Assembly (NCBI GenBank): GCA_040218535.1
Contig: JAVJRG010000005.1
Span: 1,736,001-1,800,000 of the forward strand
DNA length: 64,000 nucleotides
From: Lacipirellulaceae bacterium
GTDB taxonomy: Bacteria > Planctomycetota > Planctomycetia > Pirellulales > Lacipirellulaceae
Reading direction: 5' to 3'
Positions 25,101-41,638 of the stretch are shown piece by piece. The notes beneath the pieces were generated by a model. It saw only the letters and a list, made by a program, of their open reading frames with translations. It ran no database searches and was not told the DNA's origin. Both the position numbers and the translations under genes were made by a program. The first letter of the stretch is position 1. Each line of letters opens with the position of its first letter.

Positions 25101-26011
25101 GTCTCTTGACTCAGCCGAGGCAGACGTGCCTCGGGATCGACCACGACCAACTCGATCGTTCGACGAAGTTTTGCTACTGAATTACTACCGGCTATCCAAC
25201 GCTTTGCGAAACCACTTTTCTCATTGACACTGAACTCAATCGAATAAGCGCCCTCGCTTGCGGGCGCTGTAAATTCAAACGGTATCGTCCGGGTTTCTTC
25301 CAAGTTCCAAACAATCGACTCTTGTGATATCGCTTCGCCTGAAGCCAGGTTGCGAACCGTGGCAGTTACTTCTAACTGCTGCTTCGGTAGATCTTCATCA
25401 GCGCCGGGGCTAAGGACTGCCTGCCACTTTTCACCTGGAGAGAAAACCATCGAAGAGCGATCAACCGCCACACGAAGTCGATCACCCGGAGCGCGATCAA
25501 CAATCAGAAACCCGAGTCCGTCATTCAATCGATGGCGAGCTGCATGATCGAACACTTCCGAGAGAGGAATGCTGAAGTTGTTCGCCTCACCCGCAGTCCC
25601 TTTCGAGTTCGGTTCCAGTGAGATGATGAGGTTGCTAGCCAATGTTCCTTCGACTTCGAGATCACAACCATCAAAGGATCGACTCAATCGAGGTTGTATA
25701 ACGACTTCATCTCCGGCAAGTCTTAGGGCTTCTGCCTCGTCGGTATGGCTACCCAGCGGGTGCATCTTGAGAATCGAGCCGGACTCAACACGAATCCTCC
25801 CAGCCCAGTAATCAGTCCTCTTTGCCTGAGCCTGAGTGGCCCGTCCCCAGATCAATCGCAACTTGACCGTTCGTTCCGATTCTTCTGCCGCTTTTCCTTG
25901 CTTGCAAACCAGAAGTATAAGAAGGCTCGCCGCAAATATGAGAAAGCGCGGGTAACCAAGCCCTTGATCGGACCTGTAGCTCCGGATTGTTCGACGAATG
26001 CTTCCGTGCAT
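22109..26011 (-). CDS. Giant exported protein with glycoside-hydrolase-like TIM barrel
   Basis: 1300 residues, with a signal peptide or anchor at about 22-42 (FLIFAASLLILLVCKQGKA). The first 480 residues look like beta-sandwich modules (RTIPFEFTAPASEGAYSIEF). From about 505 to 810 a barrel-type region resembles the GHL/GH10 family (NRLAQQLHAGGYNAAVVTIS, VFDREGLKLIPAVQLSH, ALGGLALQVAGDGYGTLPG, EWLAWRQTMLSDYYVRLAN). The C-terminal third is beta-rich with a late carbohydrate-binding-like domain (SFAIPNTGRVAVSGWYRLAA) and a coiled region. The family's catalytic Glu pair cannot be assigned. Probably a polysaccharide-active or binding protein outside the cell. ATG at 26011; converges with the dihydrouridine synthase, stop codons 3 bases apart. 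Confidence 0.7.
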   Translation of the reverse strand: MHGSIRRTIRSYRSDQGLGYPRFLIFAASLLILLVCKQGKAAEESERTVKLRLIWGRATQAQAKRTDYWAGRIRVESGSILKMHPLGSHTDEAEALRLAGDEVVIQPRLSRSFDGCDLEVEGTLASNLIISLEPNSKGTAGEANNFSIPLSEVFDHAARHRLNDGLGFLIVDRAPGDRLRVAVDRSSMVFSPGEKWQAVLSPGADEDLPKQQLEVTATVRNLASGEAISQESIVWNLEETRTIPFEFTAPASEGAYSIEFSVNEKSGFAKRWIAGSNSVAKLRRTIELVVVDPEARLPRLSQETTPVLTIDPAKPGWWQRLPKWARRSPLPGVSKTSPLGNTQLRKGSQEGFVSLPASDENKDPNWQAFTLPVRQPGQPHVVEIALPSDRQQHLAISILEPDASGNVQEFGRDTGAVLSKGSNLGSSTGSTTKRLTFWPRTSSPVLLVVNRSKAEAAEFGRVDLSLVSQEKSDVQTPAQATGNRMVAAYLALPKLVEYFGAPQRYDASTGVSVDTWQSHLLAANRLAQQLHAGGYNAAVVTISAEGSTLAPIASLGDSPRYQSAKMTEVDVMPRDVLEVLLRVFDREGLKLIPAVQLSHALPALESLKSTNLSRGDLYCLGPEGRAWHEDSSSSPDAGPRYNLLSPFVQQQLDQSLHKLVDRYRDHPALGGLALQVAGDGYGTLPGVLWCLDDRTVARFAQDTGIAVPAEGPQRFARRAEQLGGENRPEWLAWRQTMLSDYYVRLANSLRQRRSDWNLLLCTDRLLTGPKLVEGVQQSAIGKTSLRRELAEVGINLPQLSRTEGILILRPRRFNAGQSRQQQSVAGYLNEVRDLDIDVSNQQSVGTQVFHEQLPLRLPSFDRANPFSGYARVELASPSLPSDDSVRKPLTDALAEDDPSLLVTDLPLASLGDAQTFRPLIGAISELPLPRYEVSTEKQQPLTTRIYREPTATTICFTNVSPWPCKVEFSLQGEQPTSFKRLGSQSLGNASASAAEKPLAEGILPVGRARWSVDLAAYDIAAWRFDSKGMRFDSPKVQLSPEASRQLSERIAELEDRLGRLDVRRTYPGLKSPGFEIQQDAPLEKAWQVRLGRHGSVDFKAEPRSGKRALRLVSADAIGVAAESNSFAIPNTGRVAVSGWYRLAAQQPQSRLYLSVEYSVPGGARRLHQALPPTQGEWTECELVLDELAATEDTQLRVQLHLTGQGEAAVDDLELFDLQFDTQTRIDLAKRVFAAKTALEKEQYVDCLRLVDGYLPRYLLANVPGAPAVQTAETQSGNQQTPEKTPRLTDRFRQWTPRLWR

Positions 26012-26234: not shown

Positions 26235-27452
26235 CTAGCTATTTGGCCCGATCAACAACATTTCCCGTTCTTCCTCAGTTAGCTCGATCCCTGCTTCCTC
26301 TCCCTTCGATAACTGTGTCTGTAGAGCCTGCATAGCCGCTAGCACTTCTGGGCAGCGATTGGCCACTTCATTCGACTCCCAACGGTCGTCAGGTTTCACG
26401 AAAAGTTCTGAGGTGCCCTCGCTTGTACGCATCAACCAAGCCGGGGTCCTCAGTGCGGATTCACTGCCACTACCACTGCCAGAAAGTATCCACTGCCGCC
26501 AGTTGTCTGCATCGTTAGCAATCATTGGCAGTAAGCTCCTTCCGTCTTTGCTAGCAGAATCTACGTCAAGTTGCATCGAATCACAAATTGTCGCACCCAA
26601 ATCCATTGGCTGCGTCAGGCCTGAGAACCTGGGAATAGGCTGATCAATGTTCGGGGCTAGCAATAAACAAGGCACATGAAGAAGTTCTCCGTAGAGCGGA
26701 CGAGCGTCAGTACCAAGTGTCCCGTGTTCCCCGAGTGCGAACCCGCGACTGCCCGCTAAAACCATGAGGGTAGATTCTGCAATTGTGGAGTAGGCAGCCG
26801 CAAAGAAATCGCCTAGGCATTCGTCCAAGACAGCCATCTGAGCTTCGTAGGCAGTCCGATATTGGAACAGCTCATCCGGATCGTCACTCTCGATGAACTG
26901 CGGGGGGGTGACAAAGTCTAGCGGTGGCGGATCGCCCTCGACAAGACGCTGTTGGCGATACTCCATCGGCGCATCCCAAGGACCGTGGAATCCACGCGCG
27001 TGAATCCATGCGATTCTTGGATCATTACCTCTCGATTTCGCTAGTTGCTCTCCAGCAATGGCAAATAGCTCTCCGCAAGAAGTCTCAGCGACCGAACTCG
27101 CAGCCTTTGTTCTTTCCAGATCAAGGAAAGACAATTGCTCGAGCGGCAAATTAGTTGCCGCTTCTGCAAGCCAAGGTTCGTCCGTGTAGAGCGATGTGCG
27201 GTAGCCTTTGTCAGCAAGTCTGTTCAAGATCGAGTATTCGTCTGAGTGATTTTGCAGGCTGTGTTTCGCGTTCCAAAGCGAATCGTAGAAATCAGGCAAT
27301 TCCACGGAATCACACAGCAGGTGATCGATGAGCAATGATTCACTGGCCAGCTTGTCACAATTCGGAGTTGGCAATCCGCTGTTGCCGTAGGCACCCAATG
27401 AAGAAGCTCGCCAGCCATCAATGACAATTAGAAGCAAATTGGGAACAGACAC
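26235..27452 (-). CDS. Sulfatase/alkaline-phosphatase-fold protein without the formylglycine motif
   Basis: 405-residue member of the alkaline phosphatase superfamily. The start resembles sulfatases (NLLLIVIDGWRASSLGAYGN, TPNCDKLASES), and LGEHGTLGTDARPLYGELLH with VPCLLLAP matches their C-proximal metal site region. However, the second metal Asp of the usual IxxDD is Gly here, and no C/S-x-P-x-R motif follows; the expected place reads LLCDSVELPDFYDSL. No signal peptide. It starts at a GTG with AAGGTG upstream. Either a pseudoenzyme or a hydrolase with another nucleophile; planctomycete genomes encode many sulfatases, so duplication and decay is plausible. Confidence 0.75.
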   Translation of the reverse strand: MSVPNLLLIVIDGWRASSLGAYGNSGLPTPNCDKLASESLLIDHLLCDSVELPDFYDSLWNAKHSLQNHSDEYSILNRLADKGYRTSLYTDEPWLAEAATNLPLEQLSFLDLERTKAASSVAETSCGELFAIAGEQLAKSRGNDPRIAWIHARGFHGPWDAPMEYRQQRLVEGDPPPLDFVTPPQFIESDDPDELFQYRTAYEAQMAVLDECLGDFFAAAYSTIAESTLMVLAGSRGFALGEHGTLGTDARPLYGELLHVPCLLLAPNIDQPIPRFSGLTQPMDLGATICDSMQLDVDSASKDGRSLLPMIANDADNWRQWILSGSGSGSESALRTPAWLMRTSEGTSELFVKPDDRWESNEVANRCPEVLAAMQALQTQLSKGEEAGIELTEEEREMLLIGPNS

Positions 27453-27652: not shown

Positions 27653-28471
27653 ATGGACTCCGTGAAGTCCGAAACAGTGTCGCCAGAAGATCCATCAATG
27701 GAAGAATCAACAGTCGAAACCCCAGAAAGCACTGCGAATTCTCGCAGCCGCTCAAGCACGGTCTATCTCGTCCTCTTATTGGTTGGGATAGGAGCAGTAG
27801 CAGCTTTCCTTTGGTCTCGCCAACAGAAACGACTCGAAGCAGCTGAGGCCGCCGCGAAGCCAAAGATCCAACAACTCGGAGGGTTAGTTCTCTCGGGAGA
27901 TTCTGGCAATCATGTTGGCAGTGTCAATCTTGCCTTGGTACGAAGTCAGGAGAACTTCGACCAAGCAATAAAGCTGGTCTCCGATTTGCCTTGGCTGAAG
28001 GTACTTGACCTCACGGGCAATTCCATCAGCGGTGAGCAGCTTAAGCAAGTAGGCCAGCTCAAGGAGCTGACTTCGCTGCACATGGCCAATACGACCATTG
28101 ACGATGCGAAGGCTGAAAACCTTACGGGGCTAAGTTCCTTAACCGCACTCCATGCGCCTGGAACTCCTCTCACTGGCAAGTCACTCGAATCCATTGGGAA
28201 CCTAAGCGCGCTTGAAGTTCTTGATCTCTCCGATACGCAGATTACGGGCGACCTCAAACCGCTAACGCAACTAGGAAAGTTAGAATGGCTCGTTCTGAAG
28301 AATGTGCCACTTCAAGACGAGTCTCTGGAAAATCTTTCGAAGATCGCTTCGCTGAAAAGACTATCGCTTACGAGCGGGCAGATTACTGCCCAGCAGTATA
28401 AAACCCTTAAGGAACAACGCCCCGGCCTGAGCATTGACGGAATGGATCCCGAAGAGGATGAACCACATTAA
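27653..28471 (+). CDS. Leucine-rich-repeat membrane protein
   Basis: 272 residues: an acidic N-terminus, one membrane helix (VYLVLLLVGIGAVAAFLWS, about 36-54), a short coiled linker (RQQKRLEAAEAAAKPK) and then about six LRR units from residue 70 on, for example LPWLKVLDLTGNSISGEQL, LGKLEWLVLKNVPL and IASLKRLSLTSGQITAQQ. The spacing (about 23-24 residues) is that of bacterial LRRs. Such proteins bind partners outside the membrane; no enzymatic motif. ATG at 27653 without clear Shine-Dalgarno. Divergent from the sulfatase-like gene and upstream of the DUF1559 gene on the same strand. Confidence 0.75.
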   Translation: MDSVKSETVSPEDPSMEESTVETPESTANSRSRSSTVYLVLLLVGIGAVAAFLWSRQQKRLEAAEAAAKPKIQQLGGLVLSGDSGNHVGSVNLALVRSQENFDQAIKLVSDLPWLKVLDLTGNSISGEQLKQVGQLKELTSLHMANTTIDDAKAENLTGLSSLTALHAPGTPLTGKSLESIGNLSALEVLDLSDTQITGDLKPLTQLGKLEWLVLKNVPLQDESLENLSKIASLKRLSLTSGQITAQQYKTLKEQRPGLSIDGMDPEEDEPH

Positions 28472-28602
28472 CAGATTGCAACACAAAGATAGGCTTCTGA
28501 TCGTCTTCTTAGACATGGAATAGAAAAGTCTACTTCTCTTTACTCCTTGTCGTTATCACTTTTCGATGCATTATCCTTCTCGGATGCATCTGGAGAAATC
28601 AA

Positions 28603-29685
28603 ATGCGAACTTCCAAAGCTAATCAGGGCTTTACCCTAGTCGAGCTCCTTGTGGTGATCGCCATTATCGGTGTCCTCGTAGGATTACTCTTACCCGCTGT
28701 CCAAGCAGCACGTGAGGCGGCTCGAAGAACGCAATGCCTCAATAACTTGAAGAACATTAGCCTTGCGGCCATTAACCATGAGGCTCAGTTCGGCTACTTC
28801 CCAACAGGCGGGTGGGGATTCAGATGGTCAGGCGAGCCGGATATGGGTTTCGGTAAAAAGCAACCCGGTGGCTGGGCCTTTAGCACTTTGCCCTTCATGG
28901 AAAATCAAAACATCTTTGACATGGCTAAGGGCCTGTCCGGTACGGATAAAGTAACTGCGATCGTTGCTCTGCGGTCGACGGTCGCTCCGATGTTCAATTG
29001 CCCCAGCCGTCGAGCTGCCGTTGGTTACCCAATCGTGAAGACGGACGAGACGCTCTATTCACAGAATCCAGAGGTTGCCGGAAGAACTGACTACGCTGGC
29101 AACGGTGGTACTGTTCGATACGGTTGGCAAGGGGATGTCGCAGTTCCGATCGCAGGTCCAGCGATAACTTGCCTCGACAGTTATCCAAGCTGTCCTGGGT
29201 TTGCAACGATCGAAACTCCCGCACAAAATGCAGCCAGCATCGGTATCGAGCCCAATGGGGCCATTGGGTACAGAAGCGAGGTCACGATTGGCCAAATCTC
29301 GGACGGAACCTCAAACACGTTCCTCTTGGCTGAGAAGTATCACAATCCACTTTCCTACGACACTGGCGATCACTGCGGAGACAACAACTCCCTTTTTCAT
29401 GGCTACGACTGGGATAATCTGCGCTGGGGACCGAGACGCGACGTCAACGACCCCACCATGTTGGTGGCCGCCACAGTCACCGGTCGAACTCCACGTCAAG
29501 ATAGATCCGGCTTTGATGGAAGCGGCCCAGGCAGCTGCAGCCAGCAGTTTGGAGGCCCTCATGCCGCCGGGTTCAACAATGCCCGCTGTGATGGCTCAGT
29601 TGATACTACTTCGTTCGATGTCGATCTGTTTGTATTGAGCTCGCTTTGCTCTCGCAACGATGGTCAGTTCGTAAGCGAAGACTAG
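28603..29685 (+). CDS. DUF1559 family pseudopilin-like protein
   Basis: 360 residues. The prepilin-type N-terminus is textbook: a short basic leader then [19 protein letters not shown] (about 8-26), to be cut after Gly and methylated on Phe. The DUF1559 domain fills the rest ([36 protein letters not shown]) and ends with the H-x9-DG motif, [12 protein letters not shown], near the C-terminus. This family is massively expanded in planctomycetes and is the best lineage marker in the window. The ATG has GGAGAAATCAA upstream. The next gene, an EF-hand lipoprotein, is 42 bases downstream, and such pairings of a DUF1559 protein with a small secreted protein are typical. Confidence 0.95.
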
Positions 29686-29727
29686 AGATTCCAGTGCGTA
29701 AAAGTACCGTTACCTGAAGGATCAAGT

Positions 29728-30351
29728 GTGAAGCCACGAATGAACCATTGCAGAAGTGTTCTAGTTTCGATCTCAGCATGCCTCTTGTTGCTTGGCTGCG
29801 AAGCGAAACTCGACCGACCCGATTTCGATCCGCAATGGTCCTCCTCAAAAGCGCTTGAGCAGTGCGACGCAAATAGCGATGGACAGATCGATCCCTCGGA
29901 GGCGGCAGCCGCTCCGGGATTGCTGATGGCCTTCGACCAATGGGACACGAACGGCGACAAACTAATCTCAGGTGACGAATTCGGTGAGCGAATCGCGAAG
30001 TACAAGGCATCCGCGGGCTCAGTAGCTTCTGCCGGTTTCACCGTGACTTACAAGAAGAAGCCGCTTCCGGGTGCAGAAGTCATACTTGACCCTGAACCCT
30101 TCATGGGTGAAGGTTTTGCCCCTGCAAAGGGCACAACCGACCGTCGCGGATACGTTTCCCTCAACCGCCCAGACATGGGAGATGGCGGTTACCCGGGAGT
30201 CTATCTCGGGCTGTATCGCGTGAGAATTTCGAAGCAGGAAGGTGGCAAGGAACTTCTGGCTGAAAAGTACAACACCGCTTCTGAGCTAGGGTTTGACTCT
30301 GGCGGCCAAACCCGTGAAGCACGAACAAGCCCACGCTTCGACCTTGAGTGA
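29728..30351 (+). CDS. EF-hand lipoprotein with regulatory-like beta domain
   Basis: 207 residues starting at a GTG that has AAGGA 7 bases upstream. The signal peptide ends in a lipobox LLLLGC, so Cys near 24 is likely lipidated. Two EF-hand loops follow: DANSDGQIDPSE (about 48-59) and DTNGDKLISGDE (about 72-83), both with good calcium ligands. The C-terminal part (FTVTYKKKPLPGAEVILDPE through DRRGYVSL) resembles a carboxypeptidase-regulatory-like Ig fold common beside DUF1559 genes in planctomycetes. Likely a calcium-binding envelope lipoprotein made with the DUF1559 protein. Converges with the polymerase/transferase fusion, 35 bases between stops. Confidence 0.85.
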   Translation: MKPRMNHCRSVLVSISACLLLLGCEAKLDRPDFDPQWSSSKALEQCDANSDGQIDPSEAAAAPGLLMAFDQWDTNGDKLISGDEFGERIAKYKASAGSVASAGFTVTYKKKPLPGAEVILDPEPFMGEGFAPAKGTTDRRGYVSLNRPDMGDGGYPGVYLGLYRVRISKQEGGKELLAEKYNTASELGFDSGGQTREARTSPRFDLE

Positions 30352-30386: not shown

Positions 30387-32663
30387 TCAACTCTCCAACC
30401 GCAACCACTCGCGCCAGACAAGCCGCGGAAAAACGAGACCGTCTCTCAGGTAGCGCTTCGCAAGCCGTCTCGGCTCAGTCGCCAAGCGATGGAGCCATTC
30501 CAAGCCGGTCTTTCGCATCCACAGTGGTGCCCGCTGCTTTTCACCGGCTAGAAAGTCGATCGTGGCCCCGATGCAAAGTGCCGCTTTCGCTTCAAGCCGG
30601 TCGGCATGCTTGTGAATCCAAAGTTCTTGCTTCGGAGCCCCCAAGCCGAGTAGCACGAGATCAGGCTGAGCGGCAGCCACGGCTGCGTAGATTTTTTCGT
30701 TCTCGATTTCGCTATGTTCGAAACCGAGCGGAGGCGAGTAGACACCGACGACATCAACGCCGGCCCAGCGAGACAGAATGTTCGCCCTGGCACGTTCTGC
30801 AACACCTGGAGCGGCTCCAAGCAGAAAAACCCTCAGTAGCCGACGAGGACGTTGAGTCCCTGCAGGAGTTTGCGAAGCTCTCTTGAAGAGAGCCGGGGCC
30901 AGATCGCTTCCGGCAACTCGTTCGGGTAGCGCCTTTTGCAACATTCGCGAAGCCAACACGACCGGCGCACCGTCAGCCAAGACTAATGAGGCATCTTCGT
31001 ACGCGGCACGCAATCCGGCGTTCTCTTGGAACATGACTGCATGATCGACGTTCGGCGTCACAACGTAACGACACCGCTCACCGCGTGGAGCGGCGCACCA
31101 CTGGAGGACTCGATCAACCGTCTGTTGCATGTTGAGTGAGTCGATCTCCATTCCGAGAAGGCTAACTTTTTTCGGCGTGGGGTTCTTAGTCTCTACCTTT
31201 TGGCACATGGATTCTTGCTTCTCGTATTGAGTTAGGAGCGCGGTGTTCAAAGCAAATCGGGGCGAATTCAATGCAGTTGTAGTGGGTTGAGCTATCGGAA
31301 GCGTATCACCAGACGGAACGAAAACTCGTTGGCGTTGCGCTACTAGGCTGACTGAGACGCCGCTGACGAGAAACAGCATCCACTGCTCGGGTGGCGAGAG
31401 CGTCAGGTCGTGAAACAGCGCGGTAGCTAGATAAGCAACCATCGTGGCGATACCAAACAGCCCCTGTGAACGCTGCCATGCGGGCACTTCCGCGTCCCGC
31501 CACAGCCGCCACGCGGCTTGGGTCCAGCTTGTCAGCACAGTCAGGAATAATGCGAATCCGATGATTCCCGTCTCCACCAGAATACTGAGAAGCGTATTGT
31601 GGTGGTCCAAATTGCGAATCGAATCGAGTTCAATCTGCTGTCGCCGATCCGCTAAGTAAGGCATCTTCAAATCAAAGAAGCGGCTAACCCCGTGGCCGAA
31701 CACAGGAGCGTCCTTGAACATCTCCCAGGAGACGTAAGCAAACGATGCTCGTTGGTAAACCGAGTGCTCCGCCGACGCATCAGAGTCCTTGCGTCCCAGT
31801 TTCTTAAGGTCCGTTCCGAACAGAGCCAGGCCCGTGATCGCTAGGCAGAGGCCCGTTACTCCGACAGCAAACTTGGCCCTTCGAGGCATCTGCAACAGCG
31901 GCACAATCGCCAGCCCGCCAGCCAGTCCCAACCATGTGCTACGTGTGTAGGTGTAGTAGACTCCCAACGCCATCGCGAATAGGAGACCGGTTAGTACGAC
32001 TCGCTGAAGGGGCTTTGCCCGACTCCACAACAGCCAAGCCGCCCAAAAACAAATCGTCAGAAACACACCAAGGCTAGCCGACATGAGGGCAGGGCCACGT
32101 GCCCGACCGAAATGCGTTCCCAACGTTGGGTCGGAAATGTAGCTTGGGAACACCGCCCACCATTGGTGCTTCACTTCAGCAACAGCCGTGAAAGCCAGGT
32201 ATCCACCTAAACAGACGAATATTGCGAGCAGCCCTCTCCAGTTCCTGCGATTGACCACACCGACGCGAGCGCAGAAGTAAAGAATCGCCGGCATCCAAAA
32301 GCTGGCGATCAGTCGCCACCAAGGGCCGACGTTGGATCGTACCACCCCCGCGGGAGGTGTCAGGAAACAACGGAGCGTCAGGTAACCGAGCAGTGCCGCA
32401 ACAAGCCAATCAGCCGTGTGCAATCCGCTCAGTTCCAGCTTCCCTTGCCGCCAAGCCAGACCAACAAGTGCCAACAGCCCGGCAAGCAGCAGACGGTCAA
32501 CAGTGAAGGTGACGGGACCAACCGAGGCGTGCCAGAAAGGATGTTGAAGGACATACCCGACGGCAACGAAAGTTCCGGCTCCCATCAGAAGCGTACTATC
32601 CTGCGTACGCCTGACTCTCCAGAAAAGAGCACTGATGACAACGATGGCAATGAAGAAGCCCAT
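30387..32663 (-). CDS. O-antigen-ligase/polymerase fused to WecG/TagA glycosyltransferase
   Basis: 758-residue fusion of two usually separate proteins. Residues 1 to about 440 are a polytopic membrane protein with a dozen hydrophobic segments and the Wzy/WaaL-type O-antigen ligase pattern (FGHGVSRFFDL, DHHNTLLSILVETGIIG). After a linker (about 440-490) a complete WecG/TagA/CpsF domain follows: KVSLLGMEIDSLNMQQTVDR, RYVVTPNVDHAVMFQ, DGAPVVLASRMLQ, FLLGAAPGVAERA, VLLGLGAPKQELWIH and GATIDFLAGEKQRAP. The first half polymerises or ligates repeat units on the outer face; the second would act on a lipid-linked sugar on the cytoplasmic face. Both stops and starts are clean, with no frameshift. ATG at 32663; the Wzz-like gene lies 31 bases upstream. 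Confidence 0.88.
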   Translation of the reverse strand: MGFFIAIVVISALFWRVRRTQDSTLLMGAGTFVAVGYVLQHPFWHASVGPVTFTVDRLLLAGLLALVGLAWRQGKLELSGLHTADWLVAALLGYLTLRCFLTPPAGVVRSNVGPWWRLIASFWMPAILYFCARVGVVNRRNWRGLLAIFVCLGGYLAFTAVAEVKHQWWAVFPSYISDPTLGTHFGRARGPALMSASLGVFLTICFWAAWLLWSRAKPLQRVVLTGLLFAMALGVYYTYTRSTWLGLAGGLAIVPLLQMPRRAKFAVGVTGLCLAITGLALFGTDLKKLGRKDSDASAEHSVYQRASFAYVSWEMFKDAPVFGHGVSRFFDLKMPYLADRRQQIELDSIRNLDHHNTLLSILVETGIIGFALFLTVLTSWTQAAWRLWRDAEVPAWQRSQGLFGIATMVAYLATALFHDLTLSPPEQWMLFLVSGVSVSLVAQRQRVFVPSGDTLPIAQPTTTALNSPRFALNTALLTQYEKQESMCQKVETKNPTPKKVSLLGMEIDSLNMQQTVDRVLQWCAAPRGERCRYVVTPNVDHAVMFQENAGLRAAYEDASLVLADGAPVVLASRMLQKALPERVAGSDLAPALFKRASQTPAGTQRPRRLLRVFLLGAAPGVAERARANILSRWAGVDVVGVYSPPLGFEHSEIENEKIYAAVAAAQPDLVLLGLGAPKQELWIHKHADRLEAKAALCIGATIDFLAGEKQRAPLWMRKTGLEWLHRLATEPRRLAKRYLRDGLVFPRLVWREWLRLES

Positions 32664-32694: not shown

Positions 32695-34857
32695 CTAGCG
32701 AGATTCCACAGCGGCATTCATCGCCTCCTCGAGCGACATTCCTGCGAACTCTTGTTCGGCTTCTTCGAGCGTTCCTCCAGTCGAAGGGAGGACACCGGGA
32801 TTGAGCATTAGGGTCTTCTCAGGCGATGAAACCGTTGGCACCTCAGGGCGAGCTGCTTGTTGGGGAACCGCTCTCTCTTCAGTCTCCTCAGGTTGCTTTT
32901 CGGCCACGGGCATCACGTAGTTGGCCCAAGGGTTCGGTTCTTCAGTTTCCTTTTCAGTTTCTACTGGAGTCTCCGGTTTCACCGTGCTATCTGACGAATC
33001 AACCAGCGACGGAGCGGCTAATTCTTCGCTTTCTTCTGACTCTGCATTCTGCTCAACCGGGTTATCTAGAAATTGGGTCGCTTGAATCGGTTCTGGTACT
33101 TCAGACTCTTCTGGCTGTTCCTCAGTGGCCACATGAGTTTGCTCAGCAACTGAGTCCTCTGAGACTTCCGTAGAGCCTAGATCATCAACTGAGGAAATCG
33201 GCTTAGGAGGTTCGTCGAATTCGGCATCTTCAGCCGCCGACGGCTTAGCAGAGTTGATGACGACGCCTTCGCGAGCGTTGAGCTCCGCGATGCGCGCTTT
33301 GCGCTGAGCATTCTCTCTTTCGGCCTCTTCCCTGGCCGCTTTTTCGGCTGCTTCCGCTTCGGCGACTCTCCGCGCTGCCTCCGCCTTCTCAGTAGAGGAC
33401 TCATCGTTTGTTGAGACGCTGGTATTCTCTGCAGATTCCCACCACTCTCGCGTTGGAGGTGTCGGGGCGGCCTGCGATTCTTGAGTCCGCTCCGGGCTGG
33501 CCGCAACGGGAGCAACGACAGAAGGTCCGCCCGTCAGAAGGACCAAACCGACACCCAGCGACAATCCGCCGAGCAATCCTGCCATCGACATGGTTGCCAT
33601 GCCGATTCCCTCGCGACTGGAGCCGGTCTCTGGCTCGTCCAGCGGAGTGAGAACATGAGCCTTCTCACTTGCTGAGCGGCTCGCTTGCGCGGTGTTGAGC
33701 TGTTGTTTGACGCGATCAAGCGTTTGACGACTTGTTTCCAAGGCTGCAACGCGGTTGGAATACTCAGCACGTTTCTCAGCGAGCGAAGCCAAACGCGATT
33801 CGAGCTCAGTCAGTTGTTTTCTCGCCGCGGCATGTCGGGCGGTATTCAGTTCCAGCTCTGCTTCAGCCGCCCCGATAGCCGACTGCAGTTCCTCAAAAAG
33901 GTCGCGTCGAATGCCTTGCTCAGCTTCGTGTGCAGCCAAAACTCGTGGGTGTTCGGCAGATCGAGTTCCTTGCAGCTTGGCCGTCACCAATTGGGCGTCG
34001 ACTAGCCCATCCTTCAAGCGACGCAAAGCCGGTTGGCTGGCTAGTAATGAGTTAGGCGTGGCGACGATCTGGGACGGGTCGCTCTGAGCAGACCGCAGCA
34101 GTTCGAGCAACTCCTTGGAGTCGCGCATCTGGGTCTGAAAACTGCGTGCTTGGGTTTCCAAGTTCACGTACTGTTGCCGCAGGTCGCTCTGACCGCTGAA
34201 CGAGGAATGCAGCATCCGCAATTCGCCAAGATCCGATCCGATCGCGGCTTCGTACGCGGCCAATCGTTGCGTTTCTTCCTGATTGAGCTGCTCAGCAAGT
34301 TTGACCTGTTGCTTCAGCTCTTCGACTAAGCCTTGTGCTTGCTCGTTACGCAGCTCTTGCAGTCGGGAGTCCAGTTGTCGCGTCATTTCAGCGACCAGAT
34401 GCAAGGCCTTTGCCCGATTCGTATCTTTGATCCTCAAATAGAAAACTTCAGTCTTACCAAACTCCGCCCCACCCGGGGGAAGCATTGTGAATTGATCACG
34501 GAATTCGTCGATTTCGCTTGCCGAAGGTTCACCGACGGGAGACCCGCTGGCAGCCGAGTCAACCGCCTTAAGCGTCGCGGCGATTACTTGGCGACTTTTT
34601 GCGAGTTCGAGAATCGTTTCCTGAAGCGTCCGCATCGCATAAAGATCGGAAAACTTACCCGGATTGTCAGCCGAAGCAGTCGCTTCTTGGCGAACCACCA
34701 CGGCTTGAGATGCTTCCCAGGGTCGTGAGCTGACGAGCGAGAACAGTAGTGCAAGCACTCCGCATCCCGCTGCAGTAAGTAGCCAGACAAAACGGTAGTC
34801 CAACAGTCGACGAACTGCATAACGGACGCTGTGAGACAAAGATTGCGTTTGATTCAT
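32695..34857 (-). CDS. Wzz/GumC-like chain-length determinant with acidic tail
   Basis: About 720 residues from the ATG at 34857 with AGGA upstream; a GTG at 34887 would add ten residues. First membrane helix at about 26-48 (FVWLLTAAGCGVLALLFSLV), then a long periplasmic coiled-coil (ELKQQVKLAEQLNQEETQRL, AEAELELNTARHAAARKQLT), a second helix near 430-450 (MAGLLGGLSLGVGLVLLTG) and about 270 cytoplasmic residues rich in Glu, Pro, Ser and Thr. The tail replaces the BY-kinase domain that is fused or adjacent in most GumC-type co-polymerases. Acts with the polymerase fusion encoded just downstream to set polysaccharide length. Confidence 0.82.
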   Translation of the reverse strand: MNQTQSLSHSVRYAVRRLLDYRFVWLLTAAGCGVLALLFSLVSSRPWEASQAVVVRQEATASADNPGKFSDLYAMRTLQETILELAKSRQVIAATLKAVDSAASGSPVGEPSASEIDEFRDQFTMLPPGGAEFGKTEVFYLRIKDTNRAKALHLVAEMTRQLDSRLQELRNEQAQGLVEELKQQVKLAEQLNQEETQRLAAYEAAIGSDLGELRMLHSSFSGQSDLRQQYVNLETQARSFQTQMRDSKELLELLRSAQSDPSQIVATPNSLLASQPALRRLKDGLVDAQLVTAKLQGTRSAEHPRVLAAHEAEQGIRRDLFEELQSAIGAAEAELELNTARHAAARKQLTELESRLASLAEKRAEYSNRVAALETSRQTLDRVKQQLNTAQASRSASEKAHVLTPLDEPETGSSREGIGMATMSMAGLLGGLSLGVGLVLLTGGPSVVAPVAASPERTQESQAAPTPPTREWWESAENTSVSTNDESSTEKAEAARRVAEAEAAEKAAREEAERENAQRKARIAELNAREGVVINSAKPSAAEDAEFDEPPKPISSVDDLGSTEVSEDSVAEQTHVATEEQPEESEVPEPIQATQFLDNPVEQNAESEESEELAAPSLVDSSDSTVKPETPVETEKETEEPNPWANYVMPVAEKQPEETEERAVPQQAARPEVPTVSSPEKTLMLNPGVLPSTGGTLEEAEQEFAGMSLEEAMNAAVESR

Positions 34858-35137
34858 GGGGAAATATCCTGTTGCTGCCGGCGACACCTATATCACCGCG
34901 CGCCTATTTGGGGCGTATTTTGCTGCACAAACGTAGCTCAATTTTCCCACCCCGTGCGGATCATTGCGGGAAAAGCCAATCGTTCGGGAAGTAACGATCC
35001 TGCGGTGTCCGTTGTTCGCCGAGACGAGAAGTATCCACGCGAAACAGAGAGGGACCGTCCTATGTTTGAGAACACCCTGGGGAACAACGTTTCCCAGCTT
35101 GCGATCGCGCCCTCGGAACGCCCTGACAGAATCACTC

Positions 35138-36283
35138 ATGAACGTCGAATGTCTCGAAACGCTGGATGCTCTCGAGCCATACTGGGCCCGCTGGGACGAG
35201 CTTGCCGGCGACTGTGTTTTCCGTAGCGCACTCTGGCAGCGCACCTGGATTGAGCATTACTGCTTTTGCGCCCAGAGTTCCGAACAACAAGCAGATTCCA
35301 ACTTGCGGGTGATTGTCGTTCGCGACGATTCTGACCAAATAGTCGCGATCTTGCCCTGCTATGAGAAGCAATCCTTCGCTTTAGGAAGGGTCTGGCGGCT
35401 GGTAGGCGACGGCGAAGTCTGCAGTGATCACTTAGGTTTCTTGTTTGAGCAGGAACGTGCCGACCAGGCTGTTGAGGCCATTGCTGAATACTTAGCGAGG
35501 CGGGACGACTGGGATTGCTTTGACTTCACCTACTTTGACGCTAACGACGACGCTTCGTGTCTACTAGCCGAGGTGTTGAAGACGCACAATTGCTTCGTTG
35601 AGTCATCACCTGGGCCAAACTGCTGGTCAATCGATCTTCCGGAGACCTGGGACGGCTACTTGATGATGCTCTCGAAATCGCATCGCAAACATATTCGTCG
35701 CCTCCAGAGAAGTGCCGCAGCAGCCGGACCGATTGAGTGGCATCTTGTCGAAGACGAGCAAGACTTTGAGGCTGCTTGGGCCAACTTGGTCGACCTCCAT
35801 CAACGGCGCAGGCACAGCCTTGGCGAGCCGGGCTGCTTCGCTTCCACAAGCTGGGCGGAGTTTCACAAAGACATTGCCCAGAAGTTGCTCTCTGCTGGAA
35901 TACTACGCCTTTCCTCTTTGGAGCTTGGCGGCCGTTTCGCTGCGGCTGAGTATCAGTTCGCCACGCCCACAACCATATCAGCCTACCAGGGTGGCCTCGA
36001 CCCCGATCGGCTTGACGAGCAGCCCGGGCGGCTCTCGCTGATCCACACGATTCAACATGCGATCAGCCAGGGCTGTACTCGGTACGACCTGATGCGAGGT
36101 GACGAGCCCTACAAGGCTAGTTGGCGAGCAGAACCCAATCGCACGCTTCGCGTGCAAGTCACCCCTGCGAGGCTTTCGGCACGCTTGCGATTCACCGCTT
36201 TGCAAAGCGTACGCAAGGCGGGGCGTTTCGCTAAGCAGATGGCTGGAAACACGCGCAAGCAAACTGAGCTAATCAACGAATAA
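35138..36283 (+). CDS. CelD/BcsL-type GNAT acetyltransferase
   Basis: About 381 residues from the ATG at 35138 (MNVECLETLDALEPYWARWD); the frame is open back to 34964, but the upstream part is unlike protein. Shows the double-GNAT pattern of the FemAB/CelD group: WDELAGDCVFRSALWQRTWI near the N-terminus, SKSHRKHIRRLQRSA in the middle, and the second half with GGRFAAAEYQFATPTTISAY followed by YDLMRGDEPYKASW. These enzymes transfer acyl groups to sugars during exopolysaccharide synthesis, and homologues sit in PEP-CTERM/exosortase polysaccharide loci. First gene of the plus-strand half of the surface-polysaccharide block; the deacetylase follows after 35 bases. Confidence 0.82.
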   Translation: MNVECLETLDALEPYWARWDELAGDCVFRSALWQRTWIEHYCFCAQSSEQQADSNLRVIVVRDDSDQIVAILPCYEKQSFALGRVWRLVGDGEVCSDHLGFLFEQERADQAVEAIAEYLARRDDWDCFDFTYFDANDDASCLLAEVLKTHNCFVESSPGPNCWSIDLPETWDGYLMMLSKSHRKHIRRLQRSAAAAGPIEWHLVEDEQDFEAAWANLVDLHQRRRHSLGEPGCFASTSWAEFHKDIAQKLLSAGILRLSSLELGGRFAAAEYQFATPTTISAYQGGLDPDRLDEQPGRLSLIHTIQHAISQGCTRYDLMRGDEPYKASWRAEPNRTLRVQVTPARLSARLRFTALQSVRKAGRFAKQMAGNTRKQTELINE

Positions 36284-36318: not shown

Positions 36319-37173
36319 ATGTTACCCAACGCTTGTAAAGAACCGATTCTCGGAATGTACTACCTTGCCACCTTGCCCGGACGCCGGCAGGCAGCCTCGC
36401 GGCGTGCCGCGGAAAAGCGTGCCCCCATTACGACGTTGTTCTACCATCGCGTAGCGGACGACCATCCCAACGACTGGACGATTGGCTTCGAGCGATTTCA
36501 GGCGCATATCGAATGGATTCGTGAACGCTTCGAAATCATCACGCTCACCGAGGCTCAGCACCGCATTGGTTCCGAGGAAAATCGGACGCCGGCCGTTTGC
36601 ATTACTTTCGACGACGGATACGCAGACAACAGTCGCGAAGCCTTACCGTGGCTACTGGATGAGAAAGTGCCGTTCACGTACTTCGTCTCGACCGATCACA
36701 TCGCTGAAGGGAAGCCTTTCGCCCATGACGAGGAGGCCGGAGTTCCGCTCGCACCTAATAGCATCGAGGAACTCCGAGTTCTCGCCGATGCTGGCGTGGA
36801 AATCGGGGCGCACACACGCAGCCATGCTGACTGTGGGAAGATCGACGATGAGGAGCAACTCTACGAGGAGATCGTGGGCTCGAAACGTGACTTGGAAGCG
36901 ATGATCAATCGCCCCGTGCGTTACTTTGCTTTCCCTTACGGTTTGCACGAGAACCTCTCCAAAGCGGCGTTCCGGATAGCCTTTCAAGCCGGTTTCTGGG
37001 GCATTTGCTCAGCCTACGGCGGATACAACTTCCCTGGTGACGATTCCTTTCACCTCCAACGCATCCACGGCGACCCAAGCTGGGCTCGCTTTTGCAACTG
37101 GTTGACCGTCGATCCGCGCAAGTTGAAGCGGGTCGAACGGTTCGACGCTGGTGATTATCGCCTCTGCTTCTGA
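36319..37173 (+). CDS. Polysaccharide deacetylase (NodB domain)
   Basis: 284 residues, carbohydrate esterase family 4. Motif 1 TFDDGYADN (96-104) supplies the catalytic and metal Asp; motif 2 IGAHTRSH (about 165-172) supplies the metal His pair; RPVRYFAFPYGLHENLS is motif 3. Removes N- or O-acetyl groups from a surface polysaccharide. Homologues accompany FemAB/CelD transferases in PEP-CTERM loci, as here. ATG at 36319 lacks a good Shine-Dalgarno; the ATG at 36355 is an alternative. No signal peptide, so cytoplasmic or exported by another route. The flippase frame follows in the same reading frame after the stop at 37171. Confidence 0.9.
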   Translation: MLPNACKEPILGMYYLATLPGRRQAASRRAAEKRAPITTLFYHRVADDHPNDWTIGFERFQAHIEWIRERFEIITLTEAQHRIGSEENRTPAVCITFDDGYADNSREALPWLLDEKVPFTYFVSTDHIAEGKPFAHDEEAGVPLAPNSIEELRVLADAGVEIGAHTRSHADCGKIDDEEQLYEEIVGSKRDLEAMINRPVRYFAFPYGLHENLSKAAFRIAFQAGFWGICSAYGGYNFPGDDSFHLQRIHGDPSWARFCNWLTVDPRKLKRVERFDAGDYRLCF

Positions 37174-37305: not shown

Positions 37306-38757
37306 TTGATCGTTACCTTGGTGCAGCGCACTGTCGGGTTTGGCAGGGGGATTCTATTTGGTCGCTGGCTTTCTCCCGAAGAACTAGGCCAGTGGGATCT
37401 GACTTACAGCTTTCTGCTACTGGCGGCCCCATTGGCAGTCCTCGGTGTCCCCGGCTCTTTCGGACGCTACGCGGAACACTATCGCCAGAAGACTCAGCTT
37501 CGGACTTTCCTCAAGCGGTCCGTCCTGTGGACAGGAATCTGCTGCGTCATTGCGACCCTGCTGATCGCCTGGGGAGCTCGCTTTTTTTCCGAGATCATCT
37601 TTAACACCTCAGAGCACGTCGAGCTGACGGTCGGCATCGCCTACTGCCTGGCGGCCATCATCTTGCACCACACGCTCACGGCACTTCTGACAGCAATGCG
37701 TCTCTACCGTGTCGTCTCAGCGATGACCTTCGCTCAGAGCCTGCTGTTTGCGATCGTCGCATTAGGGCTCGTTTGGTATTGGCCGACCAATGCAAGCGTG
37801 CTGATCGGTTACGGCTTGGCCTGCCTAGTTTCATCACTCGGAGCCCTGGCCTGGGCCTGGCCCGGGCTGAAGCAGATCGAGCAACCTCATGAGTCGCTGC
37901 CGCACAATCACTTCTGGCCGAAGCTCTTGCGATTCGCGTTTTTCGTCTGGATCGCCAATTTGCTGTCTCATTTGTTTACCATCATCGACCGTTCGATGCT
38001 GCTCCATTATTCCGGCATGTCACCAGAAGACGCCTGGGACACCATCGGGCAGTACCACAGCAGTCGGATTGTTCCACTTCTATTGGTTTCTTTTGCTGAC
38101 CTGCTGGGTGGACTGCTCCTTCCACACCTCAGTGCCGACTGGGAAGCCGGTCGCAAGCAGGCTGTCTCACAACGCCTGAACCTGACTCTCAAGCTCACCT
38201 CGCTCGGCATGCTTTGCTTTGGAGTTGCCGTTTTGATCTTCGAACCTTTCCTTTTCGGCGTCTTGCTTGAAGGAAAGTACGAAGAGGGTTCCGCAGTCCT
38301 ACCTTGGACTCTCGTCGGCTGCATCTGGTTTAGCTTGTACACCATTGCCCAAAACTACCTGTGGTGTGCCGAGAAAACCAAGCTTGCAATCGTCCCGCTA
38401 CTTTGGGGCGTTGCGGCAAATGTCCTGCTGAATCTGTTACTTCTACCACCACTGGGGCTCTACGGAGCCGTGCTCGCCACAGCAGCGGCAACGGTGGTTT
38501 GCTTTATCGCGACGCTGTTGCTCAACAGCCGTAACGAAATGCACGTTGATTCAGGAACCTGGCTCGCGTTTGCCTTGCCCACCGTCTTAGGGCTTGGTCT
38601 CTCGCCAGCTCTCATTACGTTGCTGGGAGTTGTCATCGTCATGTTCGCGACGAATTGGATCATCGGACAAGACGAGCGGCGGGAACTAACAGCCTTCTTA
38701 CAAACCTCGCTTGCGAAACTTCAACGGCCCAAAAGAACCGCACCAATAGCCCATTAA
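37306..38757 (+). CDS. Polysaccharide flippase (Wzx/MATE-like)
   Basis: At least 483 residues with 12 or more hydrophobic segments, of the oligosaccharide flippase/MVF group (GFGRGILFGRWLSPEELGQW at the N-terminus, then PLAVLGVPGSFGRYAEHYR). Moves lipid-linked repeat units across the inner membrane. The start is unsettled: the TTG at 37306 would cut the first helix, which really begins upstream (TDTFAASVVILLIVTLVQRT). The frame is open back to the deacetylase stop at 37171 with no ATG or GTG, only a CTG at 37183, so translation may start at a rare codon. The GT4 gene follows after 4 bases. Confidence 0.85.
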   Translation: MIVTLVQRTVGFGRGILFGRWLSPEELGQWDLTYSFLLLAAPLAVLGVPGSFGRYAEHYRQKTQLRTFLKRSVLWTGICCVIATLLIAWGARFFSEIIFNTSEHVELTVGIAYCLAAIILHHTLTALLTAMRLYRVVSAMTFAQSLLFAIVALGLVWYWPTNASVLIGYGLACLVSSLGALAWAWPGLKQIEQPHESLPHNHFWPKLLRFAFFVWIANLLSHLFTIIDRSMLLHYSGMSPEDAWDTIGQYHSSRIVPLLLVSFADLLGGLLLPHLSADWEAGRKQAVSQRLNLTLKLTSLGMLCFGVAVLIFEPFLFGVLLEGKYEEGSAVLPWTLVGCIWFSLYTIAQNYLWCAEKTKLAIVPLLWGVAANVLLNLLLLPPLGLYGAVLATAAATVVCFIATLLLNSRNEMHVDSGTWLAFALPTVLGLGLSPALITLLGVVIVMFATNWIIGQDERRELTAFLQTSLAKLQRPKRTAPIAH

Positions 38758-38761
38758 AAAC

Positions 38762-39934
38762 ATGGCAACCAAATCCAAAAACTTGCTACGAGTTCAGTTC
38801 ATTGCCACGAGCCTTCCGGTAGGCGGAGCGGAAACGCTACTGGTGAATCTGGTGCGCCGCCTCGACCCGAATCGATTTGCTCCGGAAATCGTCTGCCTCA
38901 AAGAGCCCGGTCCCTTGGGTGAGCTGCTTTCGCAAGAAATGCCAGTGCATAGCAATTTGATCGGCAACAAATACGACATCCGAGTGTTGTGGAAACTCTG
39001 GCGGCTGATGCGTCAGCGCGACGTCGGGGCGGTCGTTACCGTCGCCGCAGGAGACAACATGTTCTGGGGGCGTCTAGCTGCGAAACTTGCCGGCGTTCCT
39101 GTGGTTGCTTCGGCGCTACACAGTACCGGCTGGCCCGACGGGGTAGGGAAATTGAATCGGCTGCTGACACCTCTGACGGACGCATTCATCGCAGTCGCGG
39201 ACGGGCACGCACAGTTTCTCTCGGAGTTTGAACGATTCCCCGCGGAGAAAGTCCACACGATTTACAACGGGGTCGATACACAGCGATTCGCTCCGCATGA
39301 AGAAGCAGCACTCAAAGAAACGCTTGGCATCGATCCAACGTCGACCGTCGTCGGGATCCTGGCGGCCTTGCGTCCGGAAAAGAATCACGAGCTCTTCCTG
39401 CATGGAGCTGCAGTTTTGCTTAGAGATTTCCCCGAGACACAGTTCCTTGTAATGGGTGATGGCCCGCGACGTCATGACTTGGAACAACTGGCCTTCGATC
39501 TTGGCATTTCAAAGTCGATACATTTCCTCGGTTCGCGAGATGATGTTCCTCAGTTGCTCAATGTCTGTGATGTTGTTTCTTTGACGTCTCACAATGAGGC
39601 GAGTCCGGTCTCCGTTCTGGAAGCACTGGCCAGCGGCGTGCCTGTCGTCGCCTCAGAAGTGGGGTCCGTCAGAGAAACAGTCGTCGACGGTGAAACGGGG
39701 CTTCTCTTTCAAGCGGGCGACCAGCCGGCCTATGTCTCGGCGATGACCAAGCTACTGCAGAATGAGGCTCTACGAGTCTATCTGGGTGAGAACGGGCGAA
39801 AGCGTGTGATGGAGAAGTGGTCTCTCGATGGCATGACACGCGGATACGAGCAGCTCATTGAACGCATCTATTCCTCAAAGAGAAACCCTCGCATCGAAGC
39901 TGCAACCAGTAAAAGCCCGGCGGCAGCAACCTAA
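38762..39934 (+). CDS. Glycosyltransferase family 4
   Basis: 390 residues with the GT-B fold. The N-terminal domain shows VGGAETLLVNLVRRLDPNRF, the usual acceptor-side glycine-rich loop of GT4 enzymes; the C-terminal domain shows FLGSRDDVPQLLNVCDVVSL and the EX7E motif EASPVSVLEALASGVPVVAS (about 280-299), which binds the sugar nucleotide. Retaining transferase for assembly of the repeat unit flipped by the protein encoded 4 bases upstream. ATG at 38762. Donor and acceptor are not predictable. Confidence 0.9.
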   Translation: MATKSKNLLRVQFIATSLPVGGAETLLVNLVRRLDPNRFAPEIVCLKEPGPLGELLSQEMPVHSNLIGNKYDIRVLWKLWRLMRQRDVGAVVTVAAGDNMFWGRLAAKLAGVPVVASALHSTGWPDGVGKLNRLLTPLTDAFIAVADGHAQFLSEFERFPAEKVHTIYNGVDTQRFAPHEEAALKETLGIDPTSTVVGILAALRPEKNHELFLHGAAVLLRDFPETQFLVMGDGPRRHDLEQLAFDLGISKSIHFLGSRDDVPQLLNVCDVVSLTSHNEASPVSVLEALASGVPVVASEVGSVRETVVDGETGLLFQAGDQPAYVSAMTKLLQNEALRVYLGENGRKRVMEKWSLDGMTRGYEQLIERIYSSKRNPRIEAATSKSPAAAT

Positions 39935-40024: not shown

Positions 40025-40627
40025 ATGATTACTGAAACACTGCTCACCTGGATCGCTCGCTTCATCAGCGGCGTCAGCGTGCGCTGGGTGGAATCGCAGC
40101 CTGATACCTGTCAGCGGGTTTACTTCGCAAATCATACCAGCCATTTGGATGGCATCCTCGTCTGGTCCGCATTGCCGCCGAACATGCGGAAACTTACGCG
40201 CCCGATCGCGGCAAAGGATTATTGGAGCGGGGGCTGGGTCCGTCGCAAGCTGGCGAAGACTTTCAACGTGATGCTGATCGACCGCACAAAGATCAAAGTC
40301 CACCAGAGCCCAATCGACCTGATCCTGAGGGAGATCGGCAAAACTCAGTCGCTGATCCTCTTTCCCGAGGGGGGACGCACCCCCGGTGGCGAGATCGGGG
40401 AGTTCAAAAGTGGACTCTATTACTTGGCAAAGAAACGCCCCGAGTTAGAGTTGATACCGGTACACATCAATAACATGAACCGGATTCTCCCACGCGGAGA
40501 AGTGCTTCCTGTGCCGCTGCTTTCAGCCGTCACTTTTGGCCCCCCGATGTGGCTGGAAGCGGGTGAAGGGAAAATGGATTTCCTTGGTCGAGCGCGCAAC
40601 GCAGTGCTTAGCTTGAAAGACGCATAA
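40025..40627 (+). CDS. 1-acyl-glycerol-3-phosphate acyltransferase (PlsC family)
   Basis: 200 residues. The acyltransferase block I, NHTSHLDG (36-43), holds the HX4D pair (H37, D42), and block III reads LFPEGGRTPGGEIGEFKSG. Other members use lysophosphatidic acid or related acceptors; the protein is short, as in many PlsC-like enzymes. The downstream neighbour cdsA uses phosphatidic acid, the product of a PlsC, so the pair plausibly makes phospholipid precursors. ATG at 40025; cdsA follows 51 bases downstream across a heptamer array. Confidence 0.88.
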   Translation: MITETLLTWIARFISGVSVRWVESQPDTCQRVYFANHTSHLDGILVWSALPPNMRKLTRPIAAKDYWSGGWVRRKLAKTFNVMLIDRTKIKVHQSPIDLILREIGKTQSLILFPEGGRTPGGEIGEFKSGLYYLAKKRPELELIPVHINNMNRILPRGEVLPVPLLSAVTFGPPMWLEAGEGKMDFLGRARNAVLSLKDA

Positions 40628-40678: not shown

Positions 40679-41638
40679 ATGCTCGAACATTGGGCTCTGA
40701 TCGCAATCGCAGTTGCTCTGCTCGCTCTCGCGACGTGGATTGGTCGCTGGCTGCGCGAGCAGGAGTCGCTCAGCTTAGACCTTCGCACCGTCGAAGCGTA
40801 CAACGCGCGAGTCCAAGCCTGGTGGTTTTTCGGCGGACTGCTGCTTGTTTCCTTCTTCTTCCCGAGAATCACAGTCGCCCTGTTCTGCGGAATTTCCTTC
40901 TGGGCACTGCGTGAGTTCGTCACCATCACGCCGACCAGCACCGGCGATCATCGAGCGTTATTCTGGGTGTTTTTCTTCTTTACACCGATGCAATTCATCC
41001 TGGTCGCTTACAACAACTATGGTTTGTACAGCGTGCTGATTCCCGTCTACGCGTTTCTGTTTATTGCCGCCCGAGTTGCCTTTAGCGGCGATTTCACAAG
41101 GTTCCTTGAGCGTGTCGCGAAAGTGCAAAGCGGGCTGATGCTCTGCGTCTATTGCCTCAGCTTCGCTCCGGCGCTGCTGTACCTCAAGTTCCCATCGGCT
41201 CCGGGCAGTGCACCGCAGGGCGAACGTGCCAACGCTGAGCTGCTGTTCTTCTTCATCACGATTGCACTGATCGCCGACCTCATGCAATTCCTGTGGAATC
41301 GCCTCTACGGCAAGCACGTCATTGCTGAGAAAGTTGATCCCATTCGTACCTGGGAAGGCCTCATCGGCGGAGCGATCACCACCTCGGCGATCAGCCTTGG
41401 ACTGGCTTGGGCGGCTCCGTTCCCCAATTGGTACCATGCCCCGGCAATGGCTTTGGTGATCGCACTGATGGCTTCCGCCGGTACGATGACGATGAGCGCG
41501 ATTAAACGCGATCGCGGCGAGTTAGCCTCGGGCACTTTTGTTGAAGGGCACGGAGGGGTACTCAATCGGATCGATGCCCTCTGCTTTGCTGCTCCGGTCT
41601 TTTATCACCTGACGCGTTACTTCTTTGCGGCACGCTAA
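40679..41638 (+). CDS. cdsA: Phosphatidate cytidylyltransferase
   Basis: Makes CDP-diacylglycerol from phosphatidic acid and CTP. The 319-residue protein has eight or so hydrophobic segments and the family signature in the last third: KVDPIRTWEGLIGGAITTSA and SAIKRDRGELASGTFVEGHG followed by NRIDALCFAAPVFYH. The usual signature reads S-x-x-KR-x-x-G(K)D-x-G, matched here as SAIKRDRGE. ATG at 40679, no Shine-Dalgarno because a heptamer array abuts it. Ends in a GCTAACGCC element shared with the convergent gene. Confidence 0.9.
   Translation: MLEHWALIAIAVALLALATWIGRWLREQESLSLDLRTVEAYNARVQAWWFFGGLLLVSFFFPRITVALFCGISFWALREFVTITPTSTGDHRALFWVFFFFTPMQFILVAYNNYGLYSVLIPVYAFLFIAARVAFSGDFTRFLERVAKVQSGLMLCVYCLSFAPALLYLKFPSAPGSAPQGERANAELLFFFITIALIADLMQFLWNRLYGKHVIAEKVDPIRTWEGLIGGAITTSAISLGLAWAAPFPNWYHAPAMALVIALMASAGTMTMSAIKRDRGELASGTFVEGHGGVLNRIDALCFAAPVFYHLTRYFFAAR

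Follow-up and report, generated by a model that had tools for sequence, protein, structure and literature searches.

Recurrent fusion of Wzy_C and WecG genes in a conserved exopolysaccharide gene cluster of Lacipirellulaceae: a candidate two-sided inner-membrane enzyme

In Brucella and its relatives, WadA is an O-antigen ligase (GT121) with an N-terminal cytosolic glycosyltransferase of family GT25 in the same chain (PMC9938171, PMC10920833). Its active sites are reported to face opposite sides of the inner membrane, and its describers considered it, to their knowledge, the first such enzyme (PMC9938171). Two Wzy-type pathways that include a WecG-family transferase have been described as well: those for the Caulobacter holdfast (HfsJ; PMC6372794) and for Sphingomonas promonan (PrmH/PrmJ; PMC11340318). 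The Caulobacter pathway is described with a deacetylase, a putative acyltransferase (HfsK), and a flippase (HfsF) (PMC6372794). In Sphingomonas, the O-antigen-ligase family gene prmJ is named Wzy, and deletion of either prmJ or the WecG-type prmH is reported to abolish exopolysaccharide (PMC11340318). For WecG-family transferases, the reported step is addition of the second sugar, onto an undecaprenyl-pyrophosphate (Und-PP)-linked first one (PMC11340318). For TagA, of the same family, T37 and D65 are described as catalytic and R214 and R221 as part of an appendage, and the enzyme is proposed to be active only as a membrane-bound monomer (PMC6493773). In the Caulobacter and Sphingomonas systems as presented in these sources, transferase and polymerase are separate genes, whereas in the locus described here they are fused. 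Among open-licence papers, we found no report of a Wzy or O-antigen ligase fused to WecG, and WadA was the sole precedent found.

The fused gene lies on the minus strand of the window (the whole 64-kb stretch of DNA that was analyzed). Its parts and its neighbors, with the basis of each assignment, are as follows.

30387..32663, minus strand: fused gene, Wzy_C polymerase/ligase plus WecG/TagA/CpsF (GT26) domain, 758 aa (open reading frame list, Pfam, family search)
31329..32663, minus strand: membrane half, residues 1-445, with 13 predicted transmembrane helices and a large predicted outside loop, 284-360 (family-averaged hydropathy and charge count)
31542..31985, minus strand: Pfam Wzy_C, residues 227-374, with T240-R241-S242 (R-x3-L here) and H355-N356-x9-G-x-x-G (Pfam; conservation in 37 sequences)
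31170..31328, minus strand: linker, residues 446-498, 53 residues (alignment, hydropathy)
31206..31208, minus strand: in-frame ATG (Met486), possible start of a stand-alone transferase (sequence)
30390..31169, minus strand: transferase half, residues 499-758 (alignment to TagA; Pfam)
30450-30992, minus strand: Pfam WecG part of the transferase half, residues 558-738 (Pfam)
32695..34887, minus strand: Wzz-type chain-length determinant, directly upstream across a 31-nt gap, same operon by position (Pfam, locus comparison)
34964..36283, plus strand: GNAT/FemAB-type acyltransferase, in the divergent half of the locus (Pfam)
36319..37173, plus strand: polysaccharide deacetylase (Pfam)
37306..38757, plus strand: Wzx/MurJ-type flippase (Pfam)
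38762..39934, plus strand: GT4 glycosyltransferase, best NCBIfam match TIGR03088, below cut-off (Pfam, NCBIfam)
40025..40627, plus strand: PlsC-type acyltransferase, conserved neighbor (Pfam, locus comparison)
40679..41638, plus strand: CdsA-type cytidylyltransferase, conserved neighbor (Pfam, locus comparison)
26235..27452, minus strand: sulfatase-superfamily gene, which in 31 genomes of the family adjoins the transferase gene but is displaced here (Pfam, locus comparison)

The first-pass annotation had read this frame as a ligase-type membrane protein joined to WecG, and that reading was true. The gene at 30387-32663 (-) runs from ATG to TGA through 758 codons with no internal stop, and both Pfam domains score above their cut-offs: Wzy_C (PF04932) at 80.6 bits against 31.7 and Glyco_tran_WecG (PF03808) at 198.4 bits against 27.4. 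These two were the only Pfam domains found in the fused protein at E values up to 0.001, and a GT25 domain was not among them. In NCBIfam, the transferase half scored 123.8 bits (cut-off, 69) for the WecB/TagA/CpsF superfamily. The sole TIGR match of the membrane half, to TIGR03097 (putative O-glycosylation ligase, exosortase A system), scored 37.5 bits, below the cut-off of 188.1.

The fused gene and the Wzz-type gene stand back to back with the divergent plus-strand set that runs from GNAT/FemAB to CdsA. Genes for Wzx, Wzy, Wzz, and glycosyltransferases thus occur together, as is characteristic of a Wzx/Wzy-dependent locus. No initiating transferase of family PF02397 was found within the 64-kb window; four PF02397 places occur elsewhere in the same genome. 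Likewise, the fused gene is the only Wzy_C place in the window, and the genome holds four others. Another Wzy_C place of this genome (L049:640-3408, +) is part of a 922-aa frame. Three plus-strand genes, at 27653-30351, separate the fused gene from the sulfatase-family gene: one of 272 aa that looks leucine-rich-repeat-like by eye, one of 360 aa with a prepilin-like N-terminus, also by eye, and one with an EF-hand (Pfam). Because the transferase and sulfatase-family genes adjoin in 31 relatives, including the congener G001, these three genes are an insertion in this species. Farther out, at 22109-26011, is a 1,300-aa gene with no Pfam match, relatives of which occur near the locus in 8 of 14 stretches compared; none was found in L083, a stretch that reaches about 7 kb past the sulfatase-family gene.

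The whole transferase domain aligns with the solved GT26 chains 7mpk, 5wb4, and 5wfg (E = 8.9e-36), which we take to be from Thermoanaerobacter italicus. TagA residues T37, D65, R214, and R221, counted by hand on the alignment, correspond to T536, D564, R726, and R733, all four of them at least 97% conserved among 37 sequences. The fused protein has kept the catalytic residues and appendage arginines of the TagA/WecG/CpsF (GT26) family. The counterpart of TagA R224 is ambiguous, being either K736 or R737. Whereas TagA binds the membrane by its own appendage alone, the transferase here is joined to a membrane protein. In the WaaL literature, two motifs are known, H-[NSQ]-x9-G-x-x-[GT] and R-x3-L. 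The first is present in 37 of 37 sequences, with H355 and N356 each at least 97% conserved. The second is present in the window protein, and in the 37 sequences its R241 is at least 97% conserved and its leucine less so. The conserved arginine and histidine of WaaL/Wzy_C ligases and inverting polymerases (clan GT-C1, PMC10920833) are also found here, and the long outside loop described for WaaL/Wzy_C proteins near the C-terminal end of the membrane part (PMC10920833) has its predicted equivalent in the fused protein. A search for solved structures matching the membrane half returned none of relevance, either by phmmer (E up to 5) or with a 14-sequence profile (E up to 1), which at this distance is a weak test. 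On sequence grounds, both halves may be active.

The topology was predicted from hydropathy and charge only. Family-averaged hydropathy placed 12 helices above the first threshold (residues 2-20, 25-43, 51-69, 83-101, 114-132, 144-162, 195-213, 222-240, 242-260, 265-283, 361-379, and 399-417). A thirteenth, at 427-445, fell below that threshold and was added by eye, giving 13 predicted helices compared with the 12 of WaaL/Wzy_C proteins. In all 37 sequences, residues 419-451 contain a 17-residue segment with a mean hydropathy of at least 1.0; two further hydropathy peaks, inside the globular transferase, were set aside. The lysine-plus-arginine total in the short loops, counted with loop 284-360 omitted, was greater on the tail's side of the membrane in every one of the 37 sequences. 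Outside loop 163-194 had a mean of 3.2 such residues, equal to the inside loops, and the net charge after the last helix, which is weaker evidence for the side, was positive in only 24 of 37. An AlphaFold model built on three rows (the window protein and L033) reached a mean pLDDT of 42 and a pTM of 0.27 and was left unused for topology. Given the charge bias and the 13 helices, loop 284-360, with H355, is predicted to lie outside and the linker and transferase to be cytosolic. The predicted topology thus agrees with the proposal of the first-pass annotation that the two halves act at different faces of the membrane, and its concern that the transferase might lie outside the membrane is answered, at the level of prediction, by a cytosolic tail.

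The comparison of fused and split forms that the first-pass annotation had in mind was made across 43 genomes of the same family, 41 of which gave matches. Both genes occur at one place in 35 of the 43; they are fused in 7 and form separate, adjacent, same-strand pairs in 28. The eight genomes left uncounted (G016, G021, G027, G030, G032, G036, G037, and G038) lacked a match, had just one gene of the pair, were cut by a contig end, or had a gene on another contig; in G027, the polymerase is present with no transferase beside it. The six other fused genomes—G001, G035, G004, G017, G012, and G015—all have both Pfam domains above cut-off in one frame. G001, a one-contig genome, represents a different species of the same genus, with 70% identity over the protein, and the remaining five span three other genera. 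Since the gene order around the pair is identical in the fused and split genomes compared, the fused and split genes are orthologues, but in 28 of 35 genomes they encode two proteins. These observations confirm the Wzy_C-WecG gene fusion as genuine and recurrent in a conserved exopolysaccharide locus. A scan of genome contigs returned four loci, one of which (L033, a split pair) matches both halves and three of which match short parts of the membrane half; L033 is on the same contig as L009 and, as a duplicate, was uncounted. Among plasmid records, 290 matched, none of which had a single place covering 80% of the query, and the 15 matches listed covered the transferase part and linker only.

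In a sample of the phylum (392 genomes), 97 genomes had a WecG match at E 1e-20. Nine matches outside the window lay in frames of more than 600 codons, seven of which were scanned with Pfam; the remaining two, L061 and L062, measure 325 and 462 aa when read from their first start codon and stood outside the seven. Because none of the seven long frames scanned combined Wzy_C with WecG outside the family, the fusion may be lineage-specific. Other joined genes were also seen. In other Planctomycetota, L059:1537-3513 (+) and L060:1930-4080 (+) are clear GT4-WecG fusions of 658 and 716 aa; in L058, a marginal match to GT4 follows WecG. Genome G057, from another family of the order, encodes a related Wzy_C protein with a C-terminal FkbM methyltransferase (775 aa; L065:266-2593, -, also L111:6266-8593, -). 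Its FkbM domain, at the same end of the membrane protein, is of a SAM-dependent type and would be expected in the cytosol. An order-wide search of 396 genomes found matches in 224; among the matches listed, G330, G386, and G323 had whole-length matches with one stop and are split genes.

A tree was built from 37 sequences, 35 from this family and two from another, and labeled by fused or split state; L028 and the outgroup row L046 have long branches in it. The fewest changes were four, well-supported branches also forced four, and the number held with and without the linker columns. Given a split ancestor, four changes imply at least four separate fusions, although losses are also possible. 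Counted from the first base of the polymerase stop, transferase similarity begins 2 to 166 nt downstream in split pairs (median, 49.5 nt); in 6 of the 28, the two genes already share a frame. As a control, seven other neighboring pairs of the locus were followed in 36 family genomes. No fusion was seen among 210 adjacent cases (34, 31, 27, 31, 31, 28, and 28 per pair, zero fused in each), compared with 7 of 35 here; loss of the stop is therefore no general trait of the locus and was seen solely at the Wzy_C/WecG junction among the eight junctions examined. By the same measure, median gaps are 38 nt for GNAT-deacetylase, 49 nt for Wzx-GT4, and 26 nt for PlsC-CdsA, with 0 of 27, 0 of 31, and 0 of 28 fused. 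Topology may explain part of this restriction; a Wzz-polymerase fusion is predicted to put the polymerase N-terminus on the wrong side. Two loci, L110 and L112, from one genome each of two other families (G073 and G059), have the order Wzz, polymerase, PF02397 sugar transferase, GT4, WecG. Their order suggests that the Wzy_C and WecG genes became neighbors once the intervening genes had left.

We think it probable that the fusion of two neighboring genes in this Wzx/Wzy-type exopolysaccharide locus has produced a bifunctional inner-membrane enzyme, with an early-acting transferase as its tail and a polymerase as its membrane half. A phosphoglycosyltransferase encoded elsewhere, perhaps at one of the four PF02397 places, would load the first sugar onto Und-P, and the GT26 tail, cytosolic on its 53-residue linker, would add the second sugar to undecaprenyl-PP-sugar. 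The GT4 enzyme and other transferases would finish the repeat unit, and the Wzx-type flippase would turn it over. At the outer face, where its motif residues are predicted to lie, the Wzy_C half would then join the flipped units under the control of its Wzz neighbor. The order seen in G073 and G059 fits an early step on Und-PP. The suggestion in the first-pass annotation that WecG performs the first stage of assembly was not borne out, as the family is reported to add the second sugar and not the first (PMC11340318; TagA, PMC6493773). Because flipping lies between the two sites, substrate would not pass directly from one to the other. What the fusion might gain is a 1:1 ratio of transferase to polymerase, a transferase held permanently at the membrane, and co-localization in the assembly complex. 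The accompanying claim that fusion couples the early and late stages is unsupported as worded; we infer coupling at most, and the fusion is dispensable, since 28 of the 35 family genomes with both genes keep them as two.

Several other explanations bear on whether there is one protein at all. The chance that a sequencing or assembly error deleted a stop is negligible. Nothing was found in its favor, and the identical fusion recurs in the congener, whose genome is one contig, and in five genomes spread over three more genera, which makes such a loss very unlikely. Error as the source of the fusion, a doubt raised in the first-pass annotation, was accordingly rejected on the strength of independent genomes. 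The frame might instead be continuous while most of the transferase is produced on its own through internal initiation at Met486, giving two proteins as in split genomes. In the window gene, that ATG lies in frame 27 nt ahead of the point where transferase similarity begins, the G001 and G035 linkers hold ATG codons too, and an in-frame ATG occurs at the corresponding place in 26 of 28 split pairs (by the script's rule, the exceptions are L014, which has GTG, and L028, whose ATG falls a few codons within the similarity). We nevertheless consider internal initiation improbable. A linker ATG is absent from four of the seven fused genes (L007, L019, L022, and L024), though three of these four have TTG codons in the linker, and no clear ribosome site was found before Met486 (GAGAAG, nine bases upstream, was read by eye). 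For the four ATG-less genes, anything other than a joint product would be hard to argue. A single product might still be neutral: a stop lost between close, in-frame neighbors, with the joint frame kept as the downstream gene lost its start. The short gaps of split pairs, the six pairs already in frame, linkers that differ in sequence and in length (20 to 53 residues across the seven fused proteins), and the split state of most relatives would all suit such an origin, and we regard it as possible, if somewhat doubtful. It sits poorly with the three pairs of the same locus that have equal or smaller median gaps and no fusions, and with the repetition of the event, as four events at one junction have P = (1/8)^3 = 0.002 under the assumption of eight junctions of equal chance, unweighted for spacing or topology.

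The remaining alternatives concern where the two halves sit and what the membrane half does. In favor of a periplasmic transferase domain, the 13 helices are a family average whose last member was added by eye from below the threshold. This arrangement is very unlikely, in view of the uniform short-loop charge bias, the hydrophobic segment at 419-451 in every sequence, the cytosolic location of the nucleotide-sugar donors that the domain needs, and the alternative fusion of a membrane half to a methyltransferase in G057. Rather less remote, though still unlikely in our view, is that the membrane half is a ligase that transfers glycan to lipid or protein and not a polymerase. Its Pfam name is O-antigen ligase, its weak TIGR03097 match is to a putative O-glycosylation ligase, and the precedent WadA is a ligase. 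Against this, the window contains no second Wzy_C place, the locus also encodes Wzz- and Wzx-type proteins, and a Wzz partner points to polymerization; the Wzy of an exopolysaccharide locus can bear the same family name, as prmJ does, and the ligase role could fall to any of the four Wzy_C places elsewhere in the genome. We therefore favor the bifunctional enzyme with a polymerase as its membrane half.

Read as Rosetta stones, the fusions raise the tentative idea that planctomycete GT26 and Wzy_C polymerase form one complex even when encoded separately, the polymerase tail being a docking site at which repeat-unit enzymes were recruited and repeatedly fused. Fusions at that tail involve WecG, with its four fused/split changes, and FkbM methyltransferase, in one genome. 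If this idea is correct, inner-face assembly and outer-face polymerization would be coupled through direct contact. Contact of cytosolic Wzx/Wzy-pathway transferases with the polymerase across the membrane is hard to test, and a recurrent natural fusion with close split relatives offers ready paired constructs for the question. The make-up of the cluster resembles that of the Caulobacter holdfast pathway (PMC6372794), and members of Lacipirellulaceae have been described with holdfast structures (PMC7717034); a holdfast role for the planctomycete locus is conceivable, as a guess.

Among known systems, WadA invites the closest comparison (PMC9938171, PMC10920833). Both proteins combine a cytosolic glycosyltransferase, here a predicted one, with a polytopic half of the O-antigen-ligase type in one chain. 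The first-pass annotation had placed the enzyme on both sides of the membrane; the two-sided arrangement is indeed predicted for the fused protein, but it is not unprecedented given WadA as described (PMC9938171), and for a polytopic protein whose tail is cytosolic, a presence on both sides is ordinary. The two differ in that the WadA transferase is N-terminal, belongs to GT25, and acts on the lipopolysaccharide core, as described in these sources, whereas the transferase here is C-terminal, belongs to GT26, and is encoded in a Wzx/Wzy/Wzz-type exopolysaccharide locus. In a further difference from WadA, split orthologues are abundant here and the tree shows four fused/split changes. We predict that the fused protein works like WadA yet is no WadA, having another transferase family, the reverse domain order, and another locus, and it stands beside WadA as a second, differently built candidate two-sided enzyme.
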